Below are positions 6,222 to 31,208 of a DNA stretch of 41,963 nt, piece after piece. Position 1 is the stretch's first letter, and each line of letters opens with the position of its first letter. A model generated the notes under the pieces. That model did no database searches. It had not been told where the DNA came from and saw only the letters and a list, made by a program, of their open reading frames with translations. Location of the stretch: positions 1-41,963 of IMG/VR virus record IMGVR_UViG_3300017971_000447; one strand, written 5' to 3'. A program made the position numbers and the translations under genes. The stretch comes from a virus.

Positions 6222-7892
6222 ATGGCTGATAAAAAAACAAGACGTGGTTCGAGGGGCGGAAAAAAGATCAAAGAGCAGCGGGTTGTGAATCAAGAAGAGG
6301 GCGTGGTGGTAAAAGTCCTTGAGTTCGGGGGTGATGACGCTTTGCCGGATCGTGGGGAATCAAAGCAGTTAACTCCTGATGTGTTCGAGGTAGTCATAAA
6401 AGATGGTCAGGCTATTCGACCACTTTATGATCCCCTTCTTTGGGCGACGCTTCTGGAGCAGGATGTTCGCCTTTTCCGGTGCGTGACGGCCATGGCATTG
6501 AATACTGTGGGGTCCGGATGGGAGCTTTCGGCTCGATATGATTCAAAGGAATTTGTGGAGGAGAACAAGGAAAACATCAAAAAAGAGCGGGCGGAAATCA
6601 TGCCTTTGTTCAAGTATCCGAATTCAGAGTATTCCTTTGAGGAAATGATGCAGATGATCAAGACTGATGAGGAGGCCGAAGGTCAAGGTTACATGGAGGT
6701 GTCTCGGGACAATAAAGGTCAGATCGATGGTCTTTATCATGCTCCCGGTCACACAATCAGGGTTTTGGCCGAGAAAAAGGGATTTTTGCAGATGAGGACC
6801 AATCTCGGGTCGGATTCCTATGTTTTTTCTCCGGGGAAAACGGCTGAGGATAGTATTCAAAAGGTGTATTTTAAGAATTTCGGGGATAAACGAGCGATTG
6901 ATAATCGCACGGGGGGTGAAGCTAAGGGCGCTCTTGCTCCGGAATTTCGGGCAAATGAACTCATTCAGTTCAAAATTTATACTCCTCGGAGCTCATTTTA
7001 TGGGATTCCGAGAGTAGTAGCGGCGGCTCCTGCCATATCCGGTAATCGACTGGCTCAGTTGCGGAATGTTTCGTTCTTTGAGAATGATGCTACTCCCCGG
7101 TTGGCAGTTATTGTAGAAGGTGGAAATTTGGATACATCTTCCGTCAAGATGATAGAGAACTTTATTGAAGCTCGTGGGAAAGGCCCAATGAATTTTGGCA
7201 GAGTAATGGTCCTTCAACCGCAATCACAAGAGGCCGTTCCTGGGGCTGAGAGTAAGGCTAAAATCACACTGATGCCGCTAACTGTGGGTGTAACGGAGGA
7301 TGCGAGTTTTACCCGATATCTAGTTTTGAATTCGGAGATGGTTCGTGAGGCATTTGGGATTGGCAAGATTTTCTTGGGGACGGCTGATGATGTGAATCGA
7401 GCTACTGCTTTGACGATGAAGCAAGTGACCATGGAGCAAGTATTTGAGCCTGAAATCAAGAGGTACGAGCATAGATTGGATATTACCGTTATGCGTGATC
7501 TTGGAGCGAAGTACACGCAACTCAGATTTACCCGGCCCAAGATGACGGACCTTTCTTCGGATGCTCAGGCTTACGGGGTTCTTGCGGCGGCTGGGGGAAT
7601 TACGCCTAATGACATCAAGGAACTTCTTGGCCAGGATCCATTTGCGGCAGAGTGGGGTAATACTCCAATTCCTCTTATTAAGATGGGTCTTTTGGAAGGC
7701 CGCGAAGTTCCGGCTGATTTCGCGGATGGTCCTGATAGTGGTGGGGAGGGTAATGCCTCAATCGAGCAAGAAATTGCACGAGCTACCAAGTTGTTTGGGG
7801 AAGCTACGGGGTTTTCCGGAACTTTGGATCTAATAGCTAATGGTGATCCTCAAGAAGTGGTGCATAAGTTACGGGCATTAGTGGAAAAGTAG
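6222..7892 (+). CDS. portal protein
   Basis: ATG preceded by AGGAGG. The 556-residue protein resembles phage portal proteins of the PBSX-like/HK97-like group. It has an N-terminal basic/acidic tail, a core with LYDPLLWATLLEQDVRLFRC, the HAPGHTIRVL region near residue 167, FYGIPRVVAAAPAI near 263 (a hallmark portal segment), and a C-terminal NDIKELLGQDPF helix (about 465). The dodecameric portal sits at one head vertex, passes DNA and holds the neck. It lies directly downstream of the terminase module and ends four bases before a consensus -35 box. Confidence 0.85.
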   Translation: MADKKTRRGSRGGKKIKEQRVVNQEEGVVVKVLEFGGDDALPDRGESKQLTPDVFEVVIKDGQAIRPLYDPLLWATLLEQDVRLFRCVTAMALNTVGSGWELSARYDSKEFVEENKENIKKERAEIMPLFKYPNSEYSFEEMMQMIKTDEEAEGQGYMEVSRDNKGQIDGLYHAPGHTIRVLAEKKGFLQMRTNLGSDSYVFSPGKTAEDSIQKVYFKNFGDKRAIDNRTGGEAKGALAPEFRANELIQFKIYTPRSSFYGIPRVVAAAPAISGNRLAQLRNVSFFENDATPRLAVIVEGGNLDTSSVKMIENFIEARGKGPMNFGRVMVLQPQSQEAVPGAESKAKITLMPLTVGVTEDASFTRYLVLNSEMVREAFGIGKIFLGTADDVNRATALTMKQVTMEQVFEPEIKRYEHRLDITVMRDLGAKYTQLRFTRPKMTDLSSDAQAYGVLAAAGGITPNDIKELLGQDPFAAEWGNTPIPLIKMGLLEGREVPADFADGPDSGGEGNASIEQEIARATKLFGEATGFSGTLDLIANGDPQEVVHKLRALVEK

Positions 7893-23073: not shown

Positions 23074-23586
23074 ATGGCTGATTACCTATATGGTAAACGA
23101 GTAGATCCGTATCGCGGGTTCCGGTTTCGGGTACTGGATGTATCCGGGGCTGAACTCGGCGGGTTCACCACGATCAGCGGCCTACGGGATGAGACTGAAG
23201 TTGTGGAATACCGGGAAGGAAATGACGGCGTGACTGCCCGTAAACTCCCCGGATTCACTTCGGCGGATAATATCGTCCTGGAGCGCGGACTCAGTGTGAA
23301 CGAAGAGCTTCAAGACTGGCGGAATCAAGTGTGGAATGCTCAACAAGATGATACTCTTGTGGCTGATGATGAATTCCGTCGGGATGTGATCGTTCAATTG
23401 CTTGATCAGCGGGGAGACGTTGTGAAGCAGTGGAAGATTATTGAGGCTTGGCCCGCCATTTACGAAATCGATACGCTGGATGCCATGAATTCGGACGTTC
23501 TGATTGAGCGTGTGGAACTGGCAAATGAAGGTCATTACCTGATCCCGACTGCGAACGGATTGGGTCTGACCACACCGGCTGGATGA
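23074..23586 (+). CDS. tail tube protein
   Basis: 170 residues behind AAGGAGG, 13 bases after the sheath. FRFRVLDVSGAELGGFTTISGLRDETEVVEYREG is the start of the T4 gp19-like tube family, with LERGLSVNEELQDW and VKQWKIIEAWPAIYEIDTLD as further family segments. Hexamer rings stack to form the tube inside the sheath. A terminator follows ten bases after the stop, which fits high expression. Confidence 0.95.
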   Translation: MADYLYGKRVDPYRGFRFRVLDVSGAELGGFTTISGLRDETEVVEYREGNDGVTARKLPGFTSADNIVLERGLSVNEELQDWRNQVWNAQQDDTLVADDEFRRDVIVQLLDQRGDVVKQWKIIEAWPAIYEIDTLDAMNSDVLIERVELANEGHYLIPTANGLGLTTPAG

Positions 23587-23690: not shown

Positions 23691-24506
23691 ATGGAAAATA
23701 AAGAAAAACAACCTATTAACGTAGATCCGTCCGGAGTGCAACTCTACAAAATGCCCGTAGGGGAGAGTGAAATAACCCTCCCCTGCGGGTTGCTTATTGA
23801 AGGGGAGATTGAGAAATCCGTTAAGATTTCGCCAATGACTGGTAAAGATCGGAAAGACATGGCGGATCCGGCTCTTCGGAATAATCCTGCGAAGATCATC
23901 ACGAAAATCCTGAAAAATCGGCTCATCCAGATAGGGGATTTCAAGTTTCCTAGCATTCCGGATAAGTTGATTCGGTCACTTTTGGCTGGGGATCGAGATT
24001 ACCTTTTGATGAAGATTCATCAACTTGGGAATAAAGAGCGGGAGTTTAAGGCCAATATCACTTGCGAAAAGTGCGGAGAAACTTTTGAGATTCTGATGGA
24101 TTACGATGAAATTCCCGTCCGGGAGATGGATGAGGATGCTCAAAAGATGATCGATCACGGCAAGAAGGTCCGGTATTGGGAGTTCATCGATGAGGATTGG
24201 GGGATAAACGCTAAATTCCGGTACATTGATGGGACTATCCAAGAATCCGTGGCTCCGAAACTCCGGCAGAATATTGTGGAAGGGGAGTACATGATATTCG
24301 CCAAGATGATTATTGAGTGGAATGGCCTTACCAGTTTGACCGTTAAGCAAATCGAGGATTTCCCTCGGGTTCTTGTGGAGATGATCGAGAATGTGATGAA
24401 GGAACATAAGTTTGGGCCTTCATTTGATACTCAGGCTTTTGTTTGTCCGATGTGCGGGGCGAACACGGAAGGGGGTATCGATTTTACATCGTTCTTGTTT
24501 CGATAG
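23691..24506 (+). CDS. tail assembly chaperone, first frame, zinc-binding
   Basis: 271 residues. The order before the tape measure and the shape fit tail assembly chaperones with T4 gp26-like features: a beta N-terminus, LAGDRDYLLMKIHQLG near residue 105, CEKCGETFEI (Cys125, Cys128) and CPMCG (Cys252, Cys255), giving a likely four-Cys zinc site. Such proteins coat the tape measure during tail assembly. The frame ends in TTT CGA TAG, where a +1 slip would fuse it to the next frame. The stop has no terminator after it. Confidence 0.65.
   Translation: MENKEKQPINVDPSGVQLYKMPVGESEITLPCGLLIEGEIEKSVKISPMTGKDRKDMADPALRNNPAKIITKILKNRLIQIGDFKFPSIPDKLIRSLLAGDRDYLLMKIHQLGNKEREFKANITCEKCGETFEILMDYDEIPVREMDEDAQKMIDHGKKVRYWEFIDEDWGINAKFRYIDGTIQESVAPKLRQNIVEGEYMIFAKMIIEWNGLTSLTVKQIEDFPRVLVEMIENVMKEHKFGPSFDTQAFVCPMCGANTEGGIDFTSFLFR
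24495..24506 (+). other. candidate +1 ribosomal frameshift site
   Basis: Codons TTG TTT CGA TAG end the chaperone frame. tRNA-Phe on UUU can re-pair with UUC after a +1 step while the slow CGA codon or stop waits in the A site. This is like the UUU CGU site of influenza PA-X. Reading then continues GAT AGG ACA AGC into the next frame, giving a fusion of about 347 residues. Confidence 0.4.
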
Positions 24507-24737: not shown

Positions 24738-27700
24738 ATGGCATTCGGCGGCGGTGGAATGGCTGGATCGGTCGGTCTTGGGTTTGTGATGAGCCTGAAA
24801 GACAATGTGACCGGCCCGGCTATGAAAATCCACAAGTCAGTTCTTGCGCTTCAAACGGGTCTATCGAGACTGTCCATGGGGTTCGGCCTTCTCGGAGGTG
24901 CGATGGCCGGGATGGGCGGTGGAATTGCAATGGGGTTAGCCGGAGGTGTCAAAGCGGCTACGCGATTTGAAGGGACATTGAAAACTATCCAAGGAATCAC
25001 GGGGGCGGCATTTGACGATAAGCAATTGGATGCTTTAGGGAGTAGGATTGACCAGATTACATCTACTCTTCCGATGTCCTCTCAGCAAATGGCAGACGCG
25101 ATGCAACAAGCCGCTCAACAAGGTCTTGTGTTTGGTAAGACCGGAGAAGAGGCGGCAAAGACTCTTGAGAGGATCGGTTTTGAGGCCGCTCAGTTATCGG
25201 CTATTACGGGAGATATGACGGCGGCAGAAGCTCTTGGCGGAATGGGTGCGACTCTCAAGCAGTTCAATTTGGATATCTCGGAAAATGCCGGGGCCTTGTC
25301 GGATTCGATGGTCATGGTGCGAAATTCAACTAGGGCCACCGTTCCCTGGCTCATGGAAGTCAATTCACGGGCGGCGGGTACTGCCAAGACGTTTGGATTG
25401 ACGGCGGCTGAATTCCAAGGAGTTTCCGGTGTGGTTGCGGACGTTGTGAAGCAACCGCAAGGTGCCGCGTCCGGTTTGACTATGATTTTCAACTCGATAC
25501 TCAAGAAATCGGGGAAATTCGCCAAGCTGATGGGGATGGATGTCAAGAGTTTCCAGGCCGCGATGATGGAGGAAGGTGGTCCATCGGCAATGTTCCAGGG
25601 CATTGTAGGACAACTCAGTAAACTGGATAAATTCCAAAAGGCGGCGATATTTAAGGAACTCGGGATTGGCGGTCGATTCGCGACTCGGGTAATGAACTCT
25701 CTTATCGCGGCGAATGATAAGATGATTGACGGGCAAACTAACCTATCGCTCGTTATTGGTCAGGCGAATGCGGCATGGTTGGCCGGGATGAGGCGGGGAA
25801 ATAATCCCAATGCGTTTTATGAGAGGATGAGCAAAACTGCGGGGGCTCTTTTTGCGACTTTCCAAGGTAACATCGAGAACATCAAAAAGCAGTTGGGAAA
25901 AGAACTACTTGTGGCAGTGAAGCCTCTACTGAATGCTTTGATTGGGATTCAGACGGCATTTCTCGCGATTGAACCCGCTCAGAAGAGGCTTCTTGTGGTT
26001 ATACTCGGGATTGTCTCTGCGATTCTGACTCTTTCCGGGATGTTGACATTGGTAATTGCGGGATTCATGATGTTTGGGACGGTGCTTATTCCGGCGCTTC
26101 TTGTGGCGATTCCATTGGTTTTGGGAGTTGCGGCGGCAATCGGAGCAGTAGTCGGAGCACTGTACGTGTTCAAAGGTGAAGGGAAATCGGCATTTCAGTT
26201 CCTCGGAGATGGTTTCAATTCTTTGATGCTCGGGGCATCTGATTTTATTGGCGGTTTCATTAATGCGTGGCGTGGAATGGGAAAGGCTTTTATGGGTCCA
26301 TGGAAAGAGGCCGGGAGTGCGATATCGCGTGTGACCAATGGGCTTCTTTATACGTTGGGCATTACTGGAGAATGGGGTGATACTCTTAAAGACCTTGGGA
26401 CTATTCTCGGTGTAAAAGTAGGGAATGCCATAAAAAGGATAGGGCAAAAATTCAATAAATTTGTTCAAAAATGGTATCCCTTTATGACGGGATTTGTGTC
26501 GAGGATGGAGAAAGCCCGGAAGCCGATTAAGGCTATTGGGATGGCGCTTTTTGATATTTTTGAGGCTATCGGAAGTCTTGGAAAGCGTGTCCTCGAATTC
26601 TTTGGTCTTTGGTCTGATGATGGGCAAGATGCAATGGGTGACATTGCGGGAGGTATTGCCAAAGGCGAAGCGGCGGCAGATAGGTTCGTTGCTTCTTTGG
26701 AGAAGATTGCCGGACGGCTTGAAAAAATAGATGAAAAAATAGATGCAATTGATGTTGAAGGAGTTTTTAAGGGTGCCGAAGAGGGATTTAAGAAAGGCAT
26801 TGAACCGTTACGGAAGTTATCCGTCGGGCTTGAAGGGGTGTTCTCTAGTTTGAGTAGGTCGATTCAGAGAATCGGGACTCTTTTGGATACGGATATAGGT
26901 AAAGGCGTTACGGTAATGGATGGCTTAAACGCCGTGACTTTTGCATTGAATGTGCAATTCGGATTGATGGCTCTTGCTTTGAATCAGGTCGCTTTAGCGA
27001 TTGAGTTGATCGTTATCCATTTGACTTCTATGGGTCAGATTGTGAAAGGAGCGGCTCAATTATGGTGGGCGGTTTTTGGTACTGCTTTACCCGCATCCCT
27101 ACATATTCTGGCTTTAACGGTAAAGCAGATATTTAACAATATTTTAGGGACAGTGGGATCTATTTTGCAGGAAGTTGGCGGATTAATTAATAAATTTACG
27201 AGTGACCATCCGAAGTTGGCTAAGATGCTTGGGGTTGATCCAAGTGTGGGACAAGGACTTGTTCTTTGGGGAGAAAGTCTACAAGAAGGTGCAATGGATA
27301 CGGAGGGGACGGAAAAGAAAATTGCCGCGCTTAAGAAGGAAATCACAGGGGCTTTCGATCCGGCGATAGAGAGTTTCAAGGAAGCCGGGAAATCCCATCA
27401 GTACATGGGGGATGCGTTTAACGATTGGTCTAAGAGAACGGCAGATATTTTGGGGATGAAAGAACATAAACCACCTATGGATAAGGTGCCAGGACGGGGA
27501 GAATTATTTGGTCCTCCGGCCCCTGCTCCGATGGTGGAGCCTCCTGGATTTGCTAATCTTATGGATTTCTACAAAGATGCGATGGCCCCGCCAGGGCAAG
27601 TTTCCGGTGGGATAAGTGCTGATATGTCGGGAGAGGCGTTGAAATCAGCAATCGCGGCAGTGACCGTCGAACCGGAGGTGGATAATACGGTTAATTTGAC

Positions 27701-28340: not shown

Positions 28341-28655
28341 ATGCCGGTTTACACGGGATCAAGATATCGACTAAGCCGAGTGATCAAGTTTATTCTTGAG
28401 GGAAATCTAACGAAGAGGCTTTTGATTAGGTACAACATGCTCAAATCGAGCGTGTTTGAAAACGGGAGAGTGGAATTCCTTGATTATGTGGTACAAGAGG
28501 GGGATCGTTTTGATAGTCTGGCGGCTACTTACGCCGGGGATGCGACAAAATGGTGGGTCATCGCAGAGGTGAACGATTTTGTGGGCTTTCCTTTGGATTT
28601 GGAGCCAGGGACTAGATTAAGGATTCCTCCGCAGTCCTATTTCGAGGAGGTATAA
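28341..28655 (+). CDS. LysM baseplate protein
   Basis: 104 residues behind TAGGAG. The C-terminal half is a LysM-type domain: FLDYVVQEGDRFDSLAATY, then TKWWVIAEVNDF and LEPGTRLRIP. LysM proteins of this kind (T4 gp53 and eCIS relatives) tie the hub to the tube or wedges. The N-terminal basic helix is not assigned. Follows the CIS-tube-like gene and precedes the hub. Confidence 0.8.
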   Translation: MPVYTGSRYRLSRVIKFILEGNLTKRLLIRYNMLKSSVFENGRVEFLDYVVQEGDRFDSLAATYAGDATKWWVIAEVNDFVGFPLDLEPGTRLRIPPQSYFEEV

Positions 28656-28656
28656 G

Positions 28657-29457
28657 ATGGCTTTATTTCGTGAGCAAGTAGATGATACGGGTGAAAATCC
28701 AGAAATGGAAAATTTCAATGCTCTTGGAACGCCGGATGAGGAGTTTACGGTGATTAAGGACGTGAACTCTCCGATCTGCTTCCTGGACTTGAAATTGGAC
28801 GGTGAGTGGGTTCCGATGGAAGAAATCGGGATTCGGAGACTCGTGACTGAAGTGGAGATAAATGATTGTACTGACTGCAAAAAGAAAGAAGGACAGTTGA
28901 ATTTTTATGATCCGGACGGGAGTTTGATTGAATCAGAACTTCTTTCTGAGGGCCTTGAACTTCGGATAGGGATGGGCTTTCTTGGGGATGTCAGGAACTT
29001 CGGATCATGGGTTGTCAATGAGGTAAATCCGATTATTGGTCCGACTGACTTTCGGCTTGAAATGAAATTGCAGTGCCTTTCGTGTTTTATGGATCGGACG
29101 GCTGATCTTGCTCGGTATGAAAATATCACGGCGGGGGAGATTGCCAAGCTAGTTGCGGCTAAATATGGTTTGGAACCGAGTGTGGCCGATCCAGGAGATG
29201 TCATTCCGGAGTTTTCTCAGGCGTATGAATCGGATTGGTCAGTAATGGATAAGCTGGCTCAGTCTTATGGGTATCATTGGTATGTAGAGGATGATCAGTT
29301 GATTTTTCGTCCTCCAGAATCGAAAACTGCAAATTTTGAACTCAACTTCTGGCCCAAGCCAGTAGAGGGGCAAAATCCGCGCTCGTTCCGTTTTGGGAAT
29401 CTGGCTTCGGCCCGGTATTCCTGCAAAAAGGATTCTGAGTGCGGGAAATCCTCTTGA
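28657..29457 (+). CDS. baseplate hub protein, N-terminal part (ends at in-frame UGA)
   Basis: 266 residues behind GAGGAGG. Pattern of gp27/gpD-like hub proteins: GLELRIGMGFLGDVRNFGSW, ITAGEIAKLVAAKYGLEP and SDWSVMDKLAQSYGYHWYVEDDQ. The frame stops at TGA (29455-29457) within a Cys-rich loop (CKKDSECGKSS). The same frame continues without another stop to 30033 and carries the rest of the hub fold, so the full protein would be about 458 residues. An unusual split: recoding, mutation or true two-part protein. Confidence 0.75.
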   Translation: MALFREQVDDTGENPEMENFNALGTPDEEFTVIKDVNSPICFLDLKLDGEWVPMEEIGIRRLVTEVEINDCTDCKKKEGQLNFYDPDGSLIESELLSEGLELRIGMGFLGDVRNFGSWVVNEVNPIIGPTDFRLEMKLQCLSCFMDRTADLARYENITAGEIAKLVAAKYGLEPSVADPGDVIPEFSQAYESDWSVMDKLAQSYGYHWYVEDDQLIFRPPESKTANFELNFWPKPVEGQNPRSFRFGNLASARYSCKKDSECGKSS

Positions 29458-29486
29458 AATCAGAAGTGTGACTCCCAGGTGGGAGC
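29455..29486 (+). other. in-frame UGA with SECIS-like hairpin
   Basis: TGA at 29455-29457. CTCCC (29472-29476) pairs GGGAG (29481-29485) around loop AGGU. The loop begins 20 bases after the UGA and has G as second base, which satisfies the bacterial SECIS rules as I recall them (loop 16-37 bases from UGA, upper stem at least 4 pairs, G in the first two loop positions). Could also be chance. Confidence 0.35.
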
Positions 29487-30033
29487 AAGAATTTTCGCAA
29501 AAAGCGATGTGTTGAATGACCCGTTTGTCCGGGCTCAGTATGAGTATTTTTCGGAGAACGGTCAGGATCCTCTCGGATTAGAGGAGTTCTATGGGTATGT
29601 GAATCGGGAGACCGGGGAGAATGTGCCTTTTTCTTACTACATGAACTCCATCGATCTTTCGGCAGGAGGGGCGGCGATATTCTCTACCCGTCTTACTAGT
29701 TCCGAACGGCAGTGTAAAGATGGGTGTGGGATTGACGGTGAGTGTTCTTATGGCATTACTCATCTTCAGGCCGGGTTGATGATTCCCGTTCTTGGGATTG
29801 GGACCAAATATTCTGGTCTTTACGAGCTTTCCAAAGTGCGTCATCGATATGATAGCAATGGATACCATACGTCGTTCGAGGGTAAATGTATAACGCGGGC
29901 CAGGGGTAAAGCGGAGTGTGATCCATGTGATCCATGTTGTGGCCCAAGCTACTCGAATAACACGCGGTCACAACGGACAGGCCAAAAGTGGAGGACTTCT
30001 AAGTTGAGTGTGGATCAGGAGGTCGATGGATGA
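29479..30033 (+). CDS. baseplate hub protein, C-terminal part
   Basis: The same frame as the gene at 28657. The in-frame GTG 29479 is the first start but has no ribosome binding site, and lies in a hairpin; the frame is open from 29458. The product contains the hub end: LQAGLMIPVLGIGTKYSGLY followed by ELSKVRHRYDSNGYHTSFEG, which in gpD-like proteins joins the N-terminal half. It adds Cys clusters (QCKDGCGIDGEC; CDPCDPCCGP). Needs readthrough or separate initiation to make a functional hub. Confidence 0.7.
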   Translation: MGARIFAKSDVLNDPFVRAQYEYFSENGQDPLGLEEFYGYVNRETGENVPFSYYMNSIDLSAGGAAIFSTRLTSSERQCKDGCGIDGECSYGITHLQAGLMIPVLGIGTKYSGLYELSKVRHRYDSNGYHTSFEGKCITRARGKAECDPCDPCCGPSYSNNTRSQRTGQKWRTSKLSVDQEVDG

Positions 30034-31208
30034 GAATTTATACTGGAGAGAAGGTCAGATACGTAGGAAAGTATCGAGGCTTTGTTACAAATATCGAGGA
30101 TCCAGATCAGCAATTCAGGATTAAGGCTATTGTTCCGCAAGTGTTGGGAGAGGTAGAATGTAATTGGGCATTGCCGATGCTCCCCGGAGGGCAGAATGAT
30201 CCAAAGTTACCTGAATTAGATGAGATGGTCTGGATCGAATTCGAGGATGGAGACCCGAATTTCCCGACGTGGCGAGGGGGGTTTCCGAGTACGGCTCAAG
30301 GAGAGAAACCCGTGCCGAGTGAGGCAAGGGGCGAAGATGGGGATACGGTTCTTCCGCCGAGAGGAACATCTACCAGAACGCTCGCAGATGGAACGGAGCT
30401 TGCGGAACCGGCAGTAGCCTATGCAGGGGCCTATGGTGTTGAATCTCGCAAGACTCGGGGCGGTCAAAGGATCGAGATTGATCCAACTCCGGATGCTCGT
30501 AGAATGGCCGTCATGAACGAAGGCAACAACTTTTCGATGGAGTGTAATGAGCAGGGGTGTTACCGGCAGAGGGTAAGCCGGTGTGATACGGTGTGTTCCG
30601 GGAGTAACTGCCAGACTAATTGTGGATCGTGCCGGTGTGTGAATTGTGGCCCATGTTACACGGAAAGCCGGAAAGACTGCAATACCGTTTGTAAGGGCAA
30701 ATCGGGGTTTACCTATAATGGCGATGTTCGAGTGGTGCTTGGAGGAGGGGAAAACCAAGTAATCTGTAACGGAGTTTTGGAGATCACCGGATCAGGGCAG
30801 TTGAAGCTATCTCTCGGGAGTGCCGTAGGCCAAGCCGTGGCCGGGAATCTTCAGCACGGGGTTATGGGAGCCCAAGAGAATGTCATTCTGGAGAACAAGC
30901 AGGAAGTTATCGGGAACGCTTCGGCTCGGGCAATCGGGAAATCCGTAGATGTTTTGACCGGTAAGTATCAGATGAAAGCCTCAACCAATGAAATGAACAT
31001 GGATGGACTTGCGGTGAGGTTGGGGGATGAGCTTTTGGCTCTAAGTCCATTGCTCAAAGGAACGGAAGTCTTGACTCTTTTGAATGCTTTTATTCAGTGG
31101 GCAATGACTCATACCCATCCATCTGATGGGGCTCCGGCTACTCCTCCTTGGACGGGAGGACTTTTAACGCCGGGAGTGCATACATCAAATAAGGTGTTTA
31201 CGGAATGA
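30030..31208 (+). CDS. baseplate central spike protein with Cys-rich insertion
   Basis: ATGA overlap with the hub. The N-terminal OB-fold (about residues 8-95) has RGFVTNIEDPDQQFRIKAIV and PELDEMVWIEFEDGDPNFP, typical of gp5/gpV/VgrG spikes. At about 171-222 there are twelve Cys in roughly 50 residues (QGCYRQRVSRCDTVC, SNCQTNCGSCRCVNCGPC). Residues 225-340 suit a beta-helical needle. THTHP near 360 matches the HxH iron-binding motif of spike tips in P2 gpV-like proteins, though here followed by 30 more residues. It pierces the outer envelope. Confidence 0.8.
   Translation: MRIYTGEKVRYVGKYRGFVTNIEDPDQQFRIKAIVPQVLGEVECNWALPMLPGGQNDPKLPELDEMVWIEFEDGDPNFPTWRGGFPSTAQGEKPVPSEARGEDGDTVLPPRGTSTRTLADGTELAEPAVAYAGAYGVESRKTRGGQRIEIDPTPDARRMAVMNEGNNFSMECNEQGCYRQRVSRCDTVCSGSNCQTNCGSCRCVNCGPCYTESRKDCNTVCKGKSGFTYNGDVRVVLGGGENQVICNGVLEITGSGQLKLSLGSAVGQAVAGNLQHGVMGAQENVILENKQEVIGNASARAIGKSVDVLTGKYQMKASTNEMNMDGLAVRLGDELLALSPLLKGTEVLTLLNAFIQWAMTHTHPSDGAPATPPWTGGLLTPGVHTSNKVFTE

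Follow-up and report, generated by a model that had tools for sequence, protein, structure and literature searches.

In the virus record IMGVR_UViG_3300017971_000447, of which we analysed the stretch of 41,963 nucleotides at positions 1 to 41,963 (the window), the gene for a baseplate hub is interrupted by one in-frame UGA, and the question that this locus raises is how that codon is dealt with. The N-terminal part of the gpD-like hub (28657-29457, + strand, like the other features of this locus; 266 aa) ends at an in-frame TGA (29455-29457) whose next base is A, and the hub frame continues behind it (29458-30033) for 191 aa before the stop TGA at 30031-30033. A sequence-only reading of this DNA had proposed that the two pieces share one frame and are split solely by the TGA, and the frame was indeed open on both sides.

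The hub lies in a P2-like tail module of the window, in which a gpX-like LysM gene, the gpD-like hub and a gpV-like spike are consecutive (X-D-V order). The upstream gene encodes a LysM gpX-like baseplate/tail protein (28341-28655; Pfam LysM, 1.5e-4; PHROG 7145, baseplate wedge subunit, 7.9e-9). The downstream gene encodes a gpV-like spike that contains an OB domain as well as a stretch rich in Cys (30030-31208; Pfam Phage_base_V, 3.1e-14), and its start overlaps the hub stop (ATGA). Profile searches showed that the read-through frame matched PHROG 52 (tail protein) at 3.9e-18 in two stretches, compared with 2e-14 for the N-terminal and 0.018 for the C-terminal half taken separately. The better score of the read-through frame than of either half indicates that both pieces are one protein. 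PHROG 196 (baseplate hub) was matched at 1.9e-5 by the read-through frame and at 2.5e-4 by the N-terminal part, and Pfam Phage_GPD reached 17.8-19.1 bits, under its gathering cut-off of 30.1. Judging from profile matches and gene order, 28657-30033 would be the gpD-type hub, and its likeness to gpD together with the gene order suggests that it is the sole hub. It resembles the P2 gpD hub in its similarity to PHROG 52 and PHROG 196 and in having a gpX-like gene before it and a gpV-like OB spike after it; gpX immediately precedes gpD in L027 and L028 too. It differs in its UGA-interrupted frame, in clade-specific extra segments, in being Cys-rich and in a Pfam score below the cut-off. Among solved structures one weak sequence match was obtained, to the phage hub 8kea (4.5e-5), which is uninformative at the UGA site. 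An AlphaFold model of the hub made from a two-row alignment had a mean pLDDT of 36 and was set aside; the site falls there in a stretch without helix or strand. Elsewhere in the window (23691-24506), a second gene matched a PHROG named baseplate hub (PHROG 150, 5.7e-13).

Pairing with the anti-Shine-Dalgarno (anti-SD) sequence amounted to -13.1 kcal/mol at the hub ATG (28657). After the UGA, the values were -0.9 kcal/mol at GTG 29479, -0.1 kcal/mol at GTG 29509 and -1.6 kcal/mol at TTG 29512. When 69 phage genes were scored at their first possible start codon, the median was -8.4 kcal/mol and six of the 69 were as weak as GTG 29479 or weaker. The GTG and TTG starts of the continuation are thus without an SD, which bears out the earlier statement that the second half lacks a ribosome binding site at its first start. 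Further downstream, a GGGAG ends 5 nt upstream of ATT 29491 and gives a pairing of -6.5 kcal/mol (29/69 genes are as weak or weaker); this ATT stands opposite an ATG (Met) in the relative 3300018080_000574, described below. The spike has a strong SD of its own (-11.0 kcal/mol), so that a premature hub stop need not silence the spike.

The same TGA was found in a second contig, IMGVR_UViG_3300017963_000231 (86,828 bases; hereafter the twin contig), which spans the whole window at 99.96% identity. Between the window and the twin contig there are 16 substitutions and a 3-nt indel, all outside the hub, and because the two differ they are not copies of one assembled sequence. An error of a single assembly is therefore an unlikely source of the UGA, since a second, non-identical contig carries it, with the limit that the samples could share a site or reads and that the differences are partly clustered. 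Four of the 16 substitutions sit in 85 bases of the tape measure gene (26328-26412), and all four change an amino acid. We take the samples 3300017963, 3300017971 and 3300018080 to be saline-lake sediment. One person is acknowledged for the use of all three in the acknowledgement text of PMC7449369.

Relatives of the capsid protein, at 78-87% identity, were present in five more contigs. Among these five, a hub match was obtained in one, 3300018080_000574, and the remaining contigs, judged by how long they are, stop short of the hub gene. The hub of this relative (462 aa) is uninterrupted, 52% identical and aligned gap-free across the UGA site, where it has Ser. An intein or intron at the site was discarded, as the gap-free alignment leaves no insert. 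Two distant gpD proteins, PhiKM gpD (E. coli phage) and a Vibrio phage gpD, have Ser and Asp, respectively, in the UGA column, which is weak evidence in both cases because this stretch of the alignment is highly variable; in the gpD alignment the UGA site falls in an unconserved stretch of the hub. An alignment of homologues at the UGA, which the sequence-only reading had asked for beforehand, thus returned Ser, Ser and Asp, with Cys or Sec in none of the three. That reading had also named a sense codon in a close relative as evidence against itself. Such a codon is present, in a relative that is only 52% identical and that shows the likely ancestral state rather than the behaviour of this lineage.

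Comparison with the hub of 3300018080_000574 gave 137 identical residues of 259 in the first half and 83 of 151 in the second. Values of pN were 0.32 in each half, with pS at 0.75 and 0.83, near saturation. Since both halves are under equal constraint, any decay of the second half must be recent. Most simply, the UGA would be a lineage-specific change in a tolerant stretch. Among orthologues it is carried by two near-identical contigs only and is absent in the sole close relative found, and its absence there means that there is no sign of selection for the UGA. Searches of the two hub halves against phages with tblastn at 1e-5 gave no match. The hub of the relative, searched in the same way with E values up to 10, matched 40 records, all below 60% identity, with a best E value of 1e-9 among the matches listed (30 of the 40 records). 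Scans of viral contigs for the hub returned the twin contig and one relative only, the further matches being ascribed to chance, and scans of genome contigs found no relative.

TGA ends 31 of the 95 forward genes of the twin contig (the hub's own counted), and 24 of these 31 stops are backed by another in-frame stop within 20 codons. At 23584-23586, where the tail tube gene (PHROG 4542, 1.3e-21) of the window ends in TGA, the twin contig has TAA. Both results uphold the earlier claim that TGA is an ordinary stop elsewhere in this phage and that the code is unchanged. Reassignment of UGA or another change of the genetic code was accordingly rejected, TGA being a common real stop here. Gene ends were then compared for the 28 phage genes for which the sequence of a relative extends over the end, and 12 of these genes aligned past the stop in at least one relative. 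For 11 of the 12, the relative has stops in the aligned stretch; the hub alone has none. That the single frame of the relative crosses the site without gap or stop makes the split frame more than chance. Thirteen forward genes of the twin contig have an open same-frame stretch of at least 50 codons after their stop. Twelve of them were inspected, and in all except the hub (11 genes) a start codon follows no more than about 25 codons on, in most cases with a sequence that by eye is SD-like; the open continuation of the thirteenth gene has a non-coding score. A general decay of the phage was rejected, as no interrupted gene besides the hub was found among those examined.

Inserts were observed in other genes. 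An insert of about 356 codons splits the portal genes of the relatives L011 (4366-5511), L012, L013 and L015, and the insert of L011 keeps the frame and resembles an intein (Pfam Intein_splicing, 4.7e-5, under the cut-off); the portal gene of the window (6222-7892) is without it. The terminase genes of the same four relatives are split by about 0.9-1.1 kb. In the twin contig, a DNA methylase gene (L005:9702-11897, outside the window) has a large insert between two Pfam matches, part of which shows 33-34% identity over 73-91 residues to the portal insert of the relatives, and this insert is probably another intein.

The UGA is followed by a 5-bp, SECIS-like hairpin (29472-29485) made of CTCCC (29472-29476), the loop AGGT (29477-29480) and GGGAG (29481-29485). 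The hairpin begins 14 nt past the UGA, the second loop base is G, and 20 nt separate the UGA from that G. The sequence-only reading had described the stem, loop and spacing correctly. Bacterial SECIS elements follow a simple rule, which we applied as at least five Watson-Crick pairs, a loop of 3-14 nt, a G in the first two loop places, and that G 16-37 nt from the codon. By this rule an equal hairpin follows 2,694 of the 23,256 in-frame positions of the phage (11.6%). At least four GC pairs, as in the hub hairpin, are found at 488 of the 23,256 (2.1%), and relaxing the rule to at least four pairs brings the proportion of in-frame positions to 36.5%. The five-pair rule is satisfied at 8/31 TGA stops (the hub's own counted). 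Of 3,366 sampled sites, 783 equalled or beat the 45 nt behind the stop in folding energy, and comparison with shuffled sequences gave z scores of -0.68 (71 nt), -1.47 (40 nt) and -1.23 (46 nt). The hairpin is not present in 3300018080_000574, and an Rfam search gave nothing usable, its best match being an unrelated lncRNA family at E 4.3. The hairpin is near background and is at most suggestive.

Both the hub and the spike are rich in cysteine. The hub has 16 Cys in 457 residues vs 5 in 462 in the relative, and the spike 14 in 392 vs 3 in 398. In the large virion proteins (portal, capsid, sheath, tape measure and baseplate J) the Cys content is 0-0.5%, and values of 1.8-3.0% occur in some of the smaller genes of the module. 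Within the spike (30030-31208), 12 of the 14 Cys fall in the 50 residues 172-221. This composition suggests that the lineage may have a hub-spike complex bound by disulfides or metal, and it keeps the selenocysteine idea alive at low probability. ARAGORN detected no tRNA-Sec in the window, nor did it in the 86.8-kb twin contig (scanned in five pieces), which carries one tRNA-Gln. Like bacterial selenoprotein genes, the hub gene has an in-frame UGA, coding sequence beyond it and a downstream hairpin with a loop G; unlike them, it is without a Cys homologue at the site, its hairpin is near background, and no Sec machinery was seen in the phage. A published criterion for selenoproteins (PMC1088965) asks for two or more Cys homologues, with TGA/Cys pairs making up over 50%, and according to the deep-Sep paper (PMC12013277) Cys homologues now seem to exist for all known selenoproteins.

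How the UGA is used can be weighed from these results. If selenocysteine were inserted there, the hairpin would be a bacterial SECIS. The position of the hairpin and its loop G agree with the rule, an equally GC-rich hairpin follows just 2.1% of in-frame sites, and the Cys-rich hub has a Cys five residues before the UGA and another four after it, next to a Cys-rich spike. Against this, none of the three homologues (two of them distant) has Cys or Sec at the site, the stretch is unconserved, the simple-rule hairpin is found at 11.6% of ordinary sites and 8/31 TGA stops and is missing from the relative, and no tRNA-Sec was found in the phage; we give selenocysteine a very small chance. The sequence-only reading therefore stood as regards one gene with one UGA, the missing ribosome binding site, ordinary TGA stops and an unchanged code, and was not supported as regards selenocysteine; readthrough, which it had offered as well, is the reading that we prefer. 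The broader idea that the UGA is translated deliberately, by selenocysteine or by programmed redefinition, so as to place a special residue in the Cys-rich hub-spike or to ration hub copies per virion, is slim. A two-part hub, in which the second half would start separately by termination-reinitiation at GTG 29479 or at AUU 29491 and the halves would join non-covalently at the loop, is quite improbable. The break does lie inside an unconserved stretch, and GGGAG stands 5 nt ahead of an ATT that is opposite the Met of the relative. However, the GTG and TTG starts are practically without an SD, the SD-like GGGAG forms the 3' side of the hairpin stem, AUU start codons are very rare, and no two-part relative was seen, one hub relative having been found.

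The strong rival is a plain nonsense allele, leaving a truncated hub that is non-functional or badly impaired, or else a UGA that comes from shared reads or an assembly problem. The UGA is a one-off with the frame intact in the relative, TGA stops effectively in this phage, and there is no clear sign of programming, the hairpin being near background and absent from the relative; moreover, a leaky UGA would be indistinguishable in sequence from a nonsense allele carried by related strains. What speaks against it is that the same UGA occurs in two contigs, not necessarily independent, that differ by 16 substitutions (partly clustered) and an indel, that no second interrupted gene was found among those examined, and that the hub is expected to be essential. 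We regard this chief rival as rather unlikely, although the second gene with a match to a hub-named family and the clustering of the differences from the twin contig shift the balance very slightly towards it and away from readthrough. Our preferred reading, held tentatively at a little under even confidence, is that this is a single-gene gpD-type hub with one lineage-acquired UGA in a poorly conserved loop, made at full length by ordinary readthrough; that the full-length protein most likely arises in this way is the step that we infer.

In the leaky-UGA reading, a near-cognate tRNA (tRNA-Trp or tRNA-Cys) or a host suppressor would read the codon, unprogrammed or weakly favoured, and the leaky UGA-A context would aid it. 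A baseplate hub is expected to be essential and is present in very few copies per virion; the loop would tolerate varied residues at the UGA, and a low readthrough would yield enough hub. In E. coli, tRNA-Trp is described as tending to misread a UGA that has A as its next base (PMC5289835, citing Engelberg-Kulka 1981), and tRNA-Trp variants with a short anticodon stem, able to read UGA, are reported across diverse bacteria in PMC13092985. UGA-A is found at 6/31 TGA stops of the phage (the hub's own counted), so the context is not special. We make no claim of programming, since the relative lacks the stop and UGA-A is an unremarkable context here. In phage Qbeta, the main coat protein is the short product, of which the long one is an extended form. 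The hub shares with the Qbeta A1 protein an in-frame UGA in a virion protein gene followed by a long coding continuation; it differs in that termination at the UGA would yield only part of a hub, and in that the relative has no such stop. According to a review (PMC8310308), readthrough of an in-frame stop was first found in Qbeta. In those parts of the literature on selenocysteine or readthrough in phages that our search covered, we found no UGA-interrupted baseplate hub, which does not prove that none has been described.

These results also show that SECIS-like hairpins arise easily by chance, as the simple rule is passed at roughly one in-frame site in nine in this phage. If the leaky-UGA reading is true, a tailed DNA phage would depend on natural suppression for a virion protein that is low in copy number and expected to be essential, and the locus would caution against taking every in-frame stop in a metagenomic phage gene for a pseudogene or a code change.
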